Positions 2,916 through 32,922 of a DNA stretch of 34,271 bases are shown in pieces. A program made the translations under genes and the position numbers. The notes beneath the pieces were generated by a model. It searched no databases, was not told the DNA's origin, and was given only the letters and a program-made list of their open reading frames with translations. The stretch spans positions 24,001 to 58,271 of the forward strand of contig JAMOTQ010000014.1 of NCBI GenBank assembly GCA_027068365.1, in the 5' to 3' direction. The first letter of the stretch is position 1; each line of letters begins with the position of its first letter. The stretch is from Methanocaldococcus sp. (GTDB taxonomy: Archaea; AGJL01; Methanococci; Methanococcales; Methanocaldococcaceae).

Positions 2916-4207
2916 GTTAAAATCAGACCGTTTCGGTATGGAAATATTCTTCCCAAGTAGGCAACTTTCTAAACACTTTAAATGTTAAAATCAGACCGTT
3001 TCGGTATGGAAATTTCATACTGGATTGATAAACACGTAGCTATGTGGCTGAAAATAGTTAAAATCAGACCGTTTCGGTATGGAAATTACTGTTTATATAA
3101 CTGGTCATCTTTTAACAGTTTTTCAATTTCAGTTAAAATCAGACCGTTTCGGTATGGAAATTACTGTTTATATAACTGGTCATCTTTTAACAGTTTTTCA
3201 ATTTCAGTTAAAATCAGACCGTTTCGGTATGGAAATTTAAGTTTTTTATTTAAGAAAAAAGTAGTGGCGGTTTTGTTAAAATCAGACCGTTTCGGTATGG
3301 AAATCATCTTCACTATCGCAATACATTGCAGGACCGGAGTATTCTAGTTAAAATCAGACCGTTTCGGTATGGAAATCTTGTTTATCTTTATCTAAAGAGA
3401 ATCTCAGAAAATACTGTTAAAATCAGACCGTTTCGGTATGGAAATATAAGCTTAAAAAGTTGAAAAAAAAGCTTTTATGTAAATTGTTAAAATCAGACCG
3501 TTTCGGTATGGAAATATAGTAATTGGAAAAGTAAATAATCAATCAAGGGAGGGTTAAAATCAGACCGTTTCGGTATGGAAATGAGTGTAAAAATTGTTTA
3601 GATAGGTTAAGAAATGATACGGGTTAAAATCAGACCGTTTCGGTATGGAAATATTTTTCAAAATCCAAGTAATTATGACCCAAATGAAGGTTAAAATCAG
3701 ACCGTTTCGGTATGGAAATAAGAAACGTCAGACTATTGGAAGATATACATATACACAGTTAAAATCAGACCGTTTCGGTATGGAAATTCTTATTTTGTAA
3801 TACAACGCTTTTAAAATCTCGTTGTTAAAATCAGACCGTTTCGGTATGGAAATTCTTATTTTGTAATACAACGCTTTTAAAATCTCGTTGTTAAAATCAG
3901 ACCGTTTCGGTATGGAAATTTATTTCTACTAACTTTACCATTTTTATCACCCGTTTTTTTGTTAAAATCAGACCGTTTCGGTATGGAAATATTATCTTTA
4001 TTCCTCCAAACAAACCTATTATATTTACTTCGTGTTAAAATCAGACCGTTTCGGTATGGAAATATATCGTGTAACTTGAATAATATATCTATTAACTCGT
4101 GTTAAAATCAGACCGTTTCGGTATGGAAATGGGAAAGCTTGTGCGGCGATAATGCTCCCAATAATGAGAGCATTATCGTTAAAATCAGACCGTTTCGGTA
4201 TGAAAAT
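2916..4207 (+). CRISPR. CRISPR array: 19 repeats of 30 nt, 18 spacers
   Basis: Repeats start at 2916, 2984, 3057, 3132, 3207, 3275, 3347, 3416, 3486, 3553, 3623, 3690, 3758, 3824, 3890, 3961, 4034, 4101 and 4178. Eighteen are identical; the last carries G to A at repeat position 26 (GTATGGAAAT becomes GTATGAAAAT), marking the leader-distal end. The repeat begins GTTAAAATCAGACC, contains the short hairpin ACCG-TTT-CGGT and ends ATGGAAAT, which would be the crRNA 5' tag after Cas6-type cleavage. Spacers are 36-47 nt. Spacers 3 and 4 (3087-3131, 3162-3206) are identical, as are spacers 13 and 14 (3788-3823, 3854-3889). There are no cas genes nearby, so processing must depend on proteins encoded elsewhere. 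The repeat closely resembles those I remember from M. jannaschii. Confidence 0.99.
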
Positions 4208-18269: not shown

Positions 18270-19355
18270 TTAGAATTTCTTTTTCTTTCCCAATATATGC
18301 CTTGCAATTGGGTCGTCAATATTGAGCATTTTAGCTATTGATTGCAGTTTTTTATTGGTTATCTCAACGGTCTCATGGGCTTTTTTTAATATGTATGGGT
18401 AGCCATTAATGGATATTTGTTTTAATGATGATAAAACTTTTTTATCTATTTTGTTGAAGCTTGTTAATCCAACAACTCCACAGTTATCTTCTAATCTAAC
18501 AAACTGGATGTATGCAGTATCAATATTGCCACCGTATCCTTTTATAAAATTTATTCCTTTTATTACACTACTCAATTGTTTGTGTTTTTCTCTTTTTTCT
18601 TCTGGTCCAATTTTATTAACAAAGTCAATTGGTTCTGAATACCCTGCTTTATCTGTATATTTTGTAAAAACTGCAATATCTGGCATATTTTTGTCAAAAT
18701 AAATATTTATTTTTGAAGTTTTAGATATGCCAATAATTCTATCCTTAAATTCATTTATGAGTTTTGTTAAAGTTAAAATGTATTCAACATGTTCAATAAG
18801 CATCTTTTTATCAAGTTCTAAATCTAAATCCTTTGATATTATTCTAATCTTCCCAGATTTTATTTCTTCATCAATTTTTTTATTAAATTCTTTTTCATAT
18901 TCTTTATAAAGGTCTTCCAACTCTTTTTCATAAATCTCCATACCTTTTTTTGTGAATATCAACAAAGAAAATAATGAGCCATCAAAAATGTAATAATCAA
19001 TATCATAATTTTTAAGAACATACAGGGCTGTTTTTAATTCCAAAATTAACATATATCTTCTTATCCTATCATCAATATCTAAGGGATGGGCTATATCAAA
19101 TATATACTCTTCCTTGGCTTTTTTTATCTTCTCCCCAATGTTGTGGATAAAGCTAACTGCCCCAACTCCATAGAACGAAAATGATATATAATCCAACTTA
19201 TTACAACTCCCATCTCCTCCTGCAAATTTCATAGATTTTGGATTTTCAAAACTATCTGAAATCCATTTTTCTTCAACTTCTTTACGGTTAATATCGTTAA
19301 GTTTTTCCATTTTTTTAATAATTTGTTCCTTGTTTTTTAAAAGATATTCAATCAT
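18270..19355 (-). CDS. NurA-domain nuclease-like protein
   Basis: The 361-residue protein contains a NurA domain: [24 protein letters not shown] (Asp48 in GGDGS) and a second acidic strand [10 protein letters not shown], both expected metal-binding aspartates of this RNase H-like fold. NurA proteins resect DNA ends 5'-3' with the HerA helicase after Mre11-Rad50, but no herA is in this window. Neighbours are metG and eIF2-gamma, so context gives no repair link. I chose the ATG at 19355, behind GAGGGATT; the frame continues 38 codons further, but that part is only a translated copy of the eIF2-gamma 3' end. Nuclease activity is inferred. Confidence 0.82.
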
Positions 19356-19424
19356 TAACAATCCCTCAATTTTTAAGGATTTAATGAGCAGAATAATAAT
19401 TGTAATGTGCAAAAAAATATTAAA

Positions 19425-19562
19425 ATTAAAATTATCCCTCAATAGTTCCACTAACCATAGGGCTACCACCCTATTGGTATACCCCCTAACACCTCTCCTC
19501 GCTTATGCTCGGAGGTGTAAATTTGATAGTCATATTATTAAAATTATCCCTCAATAGTTCCA
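19425..19562. repeat. 26-bp perfect direct repeats flanking an 86-bp GC-rich insert; one copy is the 3' end of the eIF2-gamma gene
   Basis: Bases 19425-19450 and 19537-19562 are identical over 26 bp, and similarity continues for about 8 bp with one inserted base. The second copy includes the last codons and stop of eIF2-gamma (TATTGAGGGATAA on the minus strand). The first copy lies 112 bp away, in the gap before the NurA-domain gene. The arrangement looks like a gene 3' end regenerated by integration of a small element, or a 112-bp duplication later replaced. Confidence 0.9.
19454..19518 (-). ncRNA. GC-rich two-hairpin element downstream of eIF2-gamma (candidate ncRNA or mobile-element relic)
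   Basis: On the minus strand, 19518-19489 folds as ACACCTC/GAGGTGT (7 bp) around CGAGCATAAGCGAGGA, in which GAGC/GCGA could form tandem G-A pairs. Then 19478-19454 folds as ACC-(A)-ATAGGG / CCCTAT-GGT, nine pairs with one bulge and a six-base loop. The segment is far richer in G and C than the rest of the intergenic DNA, a known mark of structured RNAs in AT-rich hyperthermophiles. A T-rich stretch (TTTTAATTTTAATATTTTTTT on the minus strand, near 19411-19432) follows. No independent promoter is obvious, so it may be read as part of the eIF2-gamma 3' UTR. Confidence 0.45.
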
Positions 19563-20779
19563 TAACCAATTAACCTCCATCTTGAACCAATCCTTCTGCT
19601 TATAGCTACTCTATCTCCAATCTCAGCACATATTGGAAGTTTTAATTTTATATCTGCAATGTCCCCCCTTGCTGATGTTATAACCCCTGCGGTTGTAGCG
19701 GTTCCAATGTTTAGCATTAAAACCTCTCCCGTTCTCAGTGGTTCAATCTTCAACTCTTCCTTAGTTCCTACAACTCTATCCAACAAATTGGCTTTTATTG
19801 TTATCTTTTCTCTTATAGGAGGGAGAGTTCCTGGCAATCCCACAACACTTCCAGTTAAAGCATCTGATTTCGTTAAATATGGGTCTAATGTCGTCCCGAC
19901 TCCAATCAAACCCCCTGGATGGGCTTTCCTAATTATTGTGTTTCCAGCGGCTAATGAAACAATTTTTGTAGTTAATGGCTTCCAAAATGTTTTATTTCCT
20001 TCAGTTACTTTAATTCCTGGTCTTATCTCAATCTCATCTCCAACTTTAAACACTCCTTGAATAATTGCCCCTCCTAAAACCCCTCCTTTTAAGTCCTTAA
20101 TTTTAGTTCCTGGCTTGTTTATGTCAAAACTTCTTGCAACATACATTCTTGGAGTGGCATTAGGGTCTCTCTTAGGTGTTGGAATAAAGTCCTGTATTGC
20201 CTTTAACAAAACATCGATATTTGCTTCGTGGTGAGCTGAGATTGGAATTATTGGAGCATTTTCTGCAATAGTTCCCTTAACAAATTCTTTTATTTGCTCG
20301 TAGTTTTCTTCTGCCTGCTTTTCATCTACCAAATCAATTTTGTTTTGGACAATTATAATTTTATCAATTCCCAAAATCTCCAAAGCCATTAAATGTTCTT
20401 TTGTCTGTGGTTGAGGGCAGGGCTCATTAGCGGCTATAACCAAAATTGCCCCATCCATCAAAGAAGCCCCAGAGAGCATAGTAGCCATTAATGTTTCATG
20501 CCCTGGGGAATCAACAAAAGAGACCTTTCTCAAAAATTCTGTTTCAGCCAAACAGTTTGGACATCTTGGTTTTGTCGTGTAAGTTCCACACTGTGGGCAT
20601 TTTCTTATCTCACAGTCGGCATAACCCAATCTAATTGAAATACCTCTCCTCAACTCTTCACTATGCCTGTCAGTCCAAACTCCTGTTAATGCCTTTGTTA
20701 AACTTGTTTTTCCATGGTCAACGTGTCCAACCATTCCAATATTTACCTCTGCCTGCTTAGCTTGTTTTTTCTTTGCCAT
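19544..20779 (-). CDS. eif2g: Translation initiation factor aIF2 subunit gamma
   Basis: The 411-residue GTPase delivers initiator Met-tRNA to the small ribosomal subunit as part of the aIF2 trimer. G-motifs are [14 protein letters not shown] (18-31), DSPGHE and NKIDLV. A zinc knuckle [16 protein letters not shown] lies between the switches, as in the family. Domain II and III beta barrels follow ([33 protein letters not shown]). The start at 20779 follows AAGGGGAT. Its 3' end is duplicated 112 bp downstream. S6e lies 168 bp upstream on the same strand. Confidence 0.98.
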
Positions 20780-32811: not shown

Positions 32812-32922
32812 TGGTGGGGGTGCTGGGATTTGAACCCAGGTCCAGGGATTTCTCCTGCCGTGGTCCAGTGCCCTATAGGCAACTGGAGTCCCCGATGATA
32901 GACCTGGCTACACCACACCCCC
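32812..32922 (-). tRNA. tRNA-Trp (CCA anticodon) with a 33-nt intron after position 37
   Basis: The acceptor stem GGGGGTG (32922-32916) pairs with CACCCCC (32822-32816), followed by discriminator A and an encoded CCA (32814-32812). The T arm CCTGG-GTTCAAA-TCCCAGG-like segment is intact. The anticodon arm reads GGGGA-CT-CCA-G, interrupted by an intron at 32882-32850, then A-TCCCT. The exon-intron junctions form a strict bulge-helix-bulge: CTCC pairs with GGAG, with three-base bulges AGT and AAA and an inner helix TGCC/GGCA, so cleavage by the archaeal splicing endonuclease is expected within both bulges. At 33 nt the intron is short. Confidence 0.97.

Follow-up and report, generated by a model that had tools for sequence, protein, structure and literature searches.

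Palindromic repetitive elements of M. jannaschii were reportedly described by Suyama, Lathe and Bork in 2005 (FEBS Lett 579:5281), who are said to have sorted these repeats into three groups called MJRE. Judged by the published title, they resemble the family described here in being palindromic dispersed repeats. Three further systems share properties with it. The YPAL or RU-2 element of Yersinia is likewise a small, non-autonomous hairpin element with target-site duplications of variable length, which measure 3–26 bp (PMC2229807). The GC clusters of yeast mitochondria are also mobile palindromes, short and rich in GC within AT-rich DNA, and they merge and shuffle (PMC4478555). Mitochondrial repetitive hairpin-forming elements and the fungal double-hairpin elements are dispersed double hairpins, too, and sometimes lie within genes (PMC2800124). 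Casposons and CRISPR adaptation provide a parallel of another kind, namely archaeal integration at tRNA 3' ends and, for CRISPR, duplications of 25–50 bp (PMC6977970). Known small hairpin elements make short target duplications or none, whereas the element described here duplicates 25–60 bp.

Here, we analysed the gap between the eIF2-gamma gene and a NurA-domain gene in a stretch of Methanocaldococcus DNA of 34,271 nucleotides, the whole of which is called the window. We conclude that positions 19417–19568 very probably represent one copy of a mobile double hairpin that is non-autonomous and makes long target-site duplications of variable length. Genomes and loci are cited by our own G and L numbers.

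Results

The eIF2-gamma/NurA gap

The preliminary description of this DNA noted two identical 26-bp blocks 112 bp apart (19425–19450 and 19537–19562), the inner one being the real end of the eIF2-gamma gene, on either side of a GC-rich insert with two strong hairpins. Our analysis bears this out, and the stop codon lies inside the inner copy (Table 1). GC content is 45% between the repeats and 55% inside the two hairpins, versus 32% for the whole window, and the segment between the repeats folds better than shuffled sequences on both strands (z −2.8 and −2.6). The GC-rich double hairpin itself spans 64 bp (19455–19518). Since an alignment that tolerates indels extends the duplication, imperfectly, to 41 nt in the outer copy and 37 nt in the inner copy, the exact 26 bp is the perfect core of a longer repeat. 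The local alignment score of this bracket is 29; when flanks are swapped among the 29 compact copies, the 99th percentile is 12.5.

The NurA-domain frame had been suspected of running 38 codons too far upstream, and this is the case: the true start is the ATG at 19355, and the 38 surplus codons arise because the frame continues across the gap and the outer copy into the start of the element. The insertion creates the longer frame, to 19469, as an artefact and accounts for the misleading gene start. An Rfam 15 search of 19350–19650 gave nothing above the gathering score, the best weak match being due to chance. Elsewhere in the window, a 108-nt sequence at 32815–32922, probably intron-containing, was identified as a tRNA by Rfam and not by ARAGORN, which reported no tRNA over the whole window.

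Table 1. Positions in the window of the putative element, its duplicated target and the adjoining genes
Feature	Positions	Strand	Description	Remark
Outer copy of target-site duplication	19417..19457		41 nt, imperfect, exact core 19425-19450	No second copy in six empty-site congeners
Hairpin A	19455..19477		CCATAGGG...CCCTATTGG, conserved bulged T	Abuts or overlaps duplication end by <=3 nt
Linker between hairpins	19478..19488		TATACCCCCTA	
Hairpin B	19489..19518		ACACC...GGTGT, loop region TCGCTTATGCTC	
B-side tail	19519..19531		13 nt, AAATTTGATAGTC	Reaches inner repeat
Inner copy of duplication	19532..19568		37 nt, exact core 19537-19562	Functional 3' end of eIF2-gamma
eIF2-gamma gene (target, left whole)	19544..20779	minus	Pfam eIF2_C 2.7e-35, GTP_EFTU 1.3e-33	
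NurA-domain gene (downstream)	18270..19355	minus	Pfam NurA PF09376, 3.8e-39	

A dispersed family of double hairpins

BLASTN with the core recovered further copies in the source genome and across the genus: about 30 matches, partial or full, in the source genome and, at E 0.001, matches in 11 of the 14 family genomes. A search with a 65-nt consensus matched 12 of the 14 Methanocaldococcus genomes (many copies in G004, a single copy in G012, none in G003 and G009) and one of 22 genomes of other Methanococcales (G035, three weak matches). The double-hairpin element is thus MITE-like in being dispersed, multi-copy and, at 63–80 bp, too short to hold a protein gene. No autonomous partner transposon was seen among the loci read.

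The lone element of G012 (L202, G012:C1:721626-721690) is full-length and has its own bracketing repeat of about 40 nt. No other member of the family is present in that genome, which suggests that this copy either arrived recently or is the last to survive. Composite elements of 100–300 bp (L005, L007, L008, L068, L070, L109) are chains of hairpins whose modules are A, B, a GATGAAAC..GTTTCAT hairpin and a TTAATTGGGGC..GCCCCAA hairpin; these chains apparently arose by nested or adjacent insertion. One viral contig carried the hairpin-A sequence (L291), a chance match inside phage tail genes. The exact hairpin-B pattern matched no viral contig, and the scan of genome contigs with it may omit near genomes and says little on distribution.

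Pairs 1–8 of hairpin A are formed in 29/29 of the compact two-hairpin copies, and the bulged T is present in 29/29; pair 1 is C-G in 22 copies and G-C in 7, and pairs 6–8 alternate between G-C and A-T, which are compensatory changes. Hairpin B occurs in several stem versions with the outer positions paired in all. The retention of stems through compensatory changes points to the hairpin structure being maintained, although palindrome-templated correction of the hairpins during replication could be an alternative source of the covariation.

Hairpins at the element end, small size and intergenic dispersal are also what a unit of the IS200/IS605 or REP type would show, for which a Y1 (HUH) transposase would recognise the hairpin ends and act as the mobilising enzyme. 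However, the Y1_Tnp domain occurs in only 2 of the 14 genomes and in none of the copy-rich G000, G001, G002 and G004. The IS200/IS605 family is not known to make target-site duplications, which also counts against Y1 mobilisation, and we regard it as exceedingly improbable.

Bracketing repeats and element boundaries

Direct repeats scoring at least 20 bracket 71 of 151 hairpin clusters in ten genomes, versus 1.1% of swapped flanks, and 21 of the 29 compact copies, versus 0.4%; the range 0.4–1.1% is an upper estimate, since some of the swapped flanks, a few in number, come from sites that are orthologous or related. A random-position control (20/1294), unscreened for windows touching duplications, carries no weight. 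The aligned repeats of the 21 bracketed compact copies are 25–62 nt long (median 42), and no bracketing repeat was detectable in the remaining 8 or in about half of all clusters. Each bracketing repeat is a different, local sequence. Within G000, the duplications measure 31, 33, 46, 51 and 57–63 bp and are 92–97% identical.

The two ends of the element behave differently. Among compact copies, hairpin A usually lies 0–4 nt from the duplication, and the gap on the B side varies from 0 to about 33 nt. A precise A end, a loose B end and a variable duplication length are found in SINEs, and the conserved, covarying stems are RNA-like; the element might accordingly be a retroposon, whose structured RNA would be reverse transcribed from a nick in the target (target-primed), and this would be the RNA sub-case of the explanation that we favour. 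However, the RVT_1 reverse transcriptase was found in 0/14 genomes of the genus, with the control positive in Methanosarcina and others, and either a polymerase of the host or some undescribed enzyme would have to do the copying. We consider a retroposon unlikely.

The variable duplication length, the modular hairpin chains and the lack of an enzyme could also be accounted for by template switching during replication, in which a nascent strand copies a distant hairpin and returns 25–60 bases behind its exit, with no dedicated enzyme. The A-side boundary is nonetheless precise (0–4 nt in most copies) and the unit is a defined A + B element, neither of which favours such a process; template switching also predicts, as a prediction only, that deletions are equally frequent. 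This origin seems rather doubtful to us, and we retain insertion of a mobile element as the preferred reading.

Empty and filled sites

Comparison with congeners provided evidence of insertion. The single-copy, empty gap that the preliminary description had named as support for insertion is present in six of them (G001, G002, G007, G009, G011, G012), where one copy of the gene end is followed directly by the NurA region; a two-copy arrangement in every species, which it had set against insertion, is not what these genomes contain. In G004 the site is filled: the B-side junction is identical, the outer repeat has diverged and extra hairpins are lodged inside hairpin A. The insertion very probably occurred next to the stop codon in a common ancestor of the source genome and G004. 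The eIF2-gamma gap is also longer in G008 and G013, but with unrelated AT-rich DNA, and in G005, G006 and G010 eIF2-gamma has a different neighbour.

Clean empty sites were obtained at three more loci, where elements of about 64–75 bp have doubled a stretch that is single elsewhere: 48–50 bp at L141 (in most of ten matching loci, two being overlapping loci from G010), 42–44 bp at L097 (in five of six genomes) and 46–53 bp at L222 (in six genomes). At L126, three species have a single-copy stretch of 51–55 bp, and in two others it is shorter, at 38 bp. The exception among the empty-site comparisons is L099, one of the copies that lack a bracketing repeat: set against G007, it has duplicated nothing, which counts against the general pattern unless decay or a different outcome is admitted. 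The empty sites confirm that the double-hairpin element duplicates its target site, a further MITE-like property, and the duplication is about 25–60 bp and variable in length.

Sequences that are duplicated

In reconstructed empty sites, classified by a simple mechanical frame test with uncurated frames, the repeats contain an ORF stop in 20 cases, an ORF start in 12 and both in 7, lie within an ORF of 80 or more codons in 16 and belong to none of these classes in 16. Where a gene terminus falls within the duplication, it is restored on the gene side and the outer copy is left as spacer, so that the gene stays whole. The 3' ends of tRNAs are also duplicated beside the element, those of tRNA-Ile and tRNA-Arg at L082, L212, L218 and L214 and that of tRNA-Cys at L078 and L088; the tRNAs score as intact, and ARAGORN finds one gene at each. 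The degenerate second 3' ends at L082, L212, L218 and L214 lie about 130–250 bp from the intact tRNA genes. Such copies were made by element insertion, and it would be easy to take them for the att sites that integrated elements leave.

Since the repeat differs in sequence from site to site, varies in length and is also drawn from gene starts, tRNA 3' ends and CRISPR repeats, we interpret it as a target-site duplication and not as an att core. The preliminary description had proposed the relic of a small integrated element or a non-autonomous unit, and had likened it to archaeal elements that recombine into gene 3' ends. An inserted, non-autonomous hairpin unit agrees with the empty sites and the other copies; the likeness to integrative elements does not hold, as their repeat would be an att core common to site and element, and the repeat here differs per site and varies in length. 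The pair of identical 26-bp blocks where the gene ends would suit a larger element that integrated site-specifically there and left att repeats and a remnant. This is contradicted by the site-specific repeat sequences, by the short unit being intact at dozens of sites and by the duplication of gene starts, and it has next to no probability.

CRISPR repeats also serve as hosts, and several copies of the element sit between two CRISPR repeats in G000, G001, G005 and G006. In many places in G005 and G006 (L270–L274, L278–L281), the hairpin element stands between a CRISPR repeat and a degenerate CRISPR repeat in units that are nearly identical; they may derive from one insertion in a terminal CRISPR repeat that spread with arrays or array ends. 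The window has a CRISPR array of its own (2916–4207) with 30-bp repeats and spacers of about 36–45 bp, in which two pairs of neighbouring spacers are duplicated. The last repeats have diverged (GTTAAATCAAACCTCTTAGAGG at about 4237), and the array end carries no hairpin element.

These locations raise the question of a CRISPR-type Cas1-Cas2 integrase, which would mobilise hairpin DNA and duplicate a whole repeat of 25–50 bp; CRISPR duplications generally have this length (PMC6977970), near the range of the element. However, the duplication varies from about 31 to 63 bp within G000 and follows no fixed ruler, and an integrase of the ruler type is disfavoured because of this spread within one genome. 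Moreover, inserts of 63–80 bp and longer exceed the spacers in the window, and the CRISPR-flanked copies of G005 and G006, being near-identical, may have spread with their arrays. Mobilisation by Cas1-Cas2 is highly unlikely in our judgement.

Discussion

Our results argue for insertion of a mobile double hairpin at the end of the eIF2-gamma gene. In the mechanism that we propose, each strand of the target would receive a nick, the two being separated by tens of bases, hairpin DNA or an RNA copy would be joined or copied in with a precise hairpin-A end and a loose B end, and filling of the staggered gaps would yield the two repeats. We suggest that, during hyperthermophilic growth, distant nicks in AT-rich DNA may melt into long overhangs, and that survivors would be enriched at sites where the duplication restores function. 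Taken alone, the staggered-nick step has a probability that we place a little short of even. More tentatively, we propose an undescribed insertion process with one precise hairpin end, one loose end and variable duplications of 25–60 bp, carried out either by an archaeal nuclease or integrase yet to be characterised or by a host polymerase in target-primed copying, through which gene, tRNA and CRISPR termini might be entered unharmed.

The element points to an insertion reaction without a known enzyme in these hyperthermophiles. Its long duplication shows how a compact genome can take up insertions by the dozen at the ends of genes and tRNAs with function kept, and the diverged repeat pairs can be used to date insertions and to find empty sites genus-wide.

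The double-hairpin repeats are probably the palindromic elements of M. jannaschii reported in 2005. Since those repeats have been published, the repeats themselves are probably known, and we regard the long, variable duplications as the novelty; in the openly licensed literature we found no prior report of long variable duplications, empty sites, or duplication of tRNA, CRISPR or gene ends for these repeats. Casposons differ from the present element in their fixed ruler length (14–15 bp) and in encoding their own proteins, and the double-hairpin elements of Allomyces were reported without flanking duplications. Unlike our element, YPAL is 168 bp long and unrelated in sequence, with duplications shorter than almost all of those described here, and the mitochondrial GC clusters have flanking duplications of only 2–3 bp (AG or ACT). 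YPAL and the mitochondrial GC clusters are the nearest mechanistic relatives of the archaeal element.
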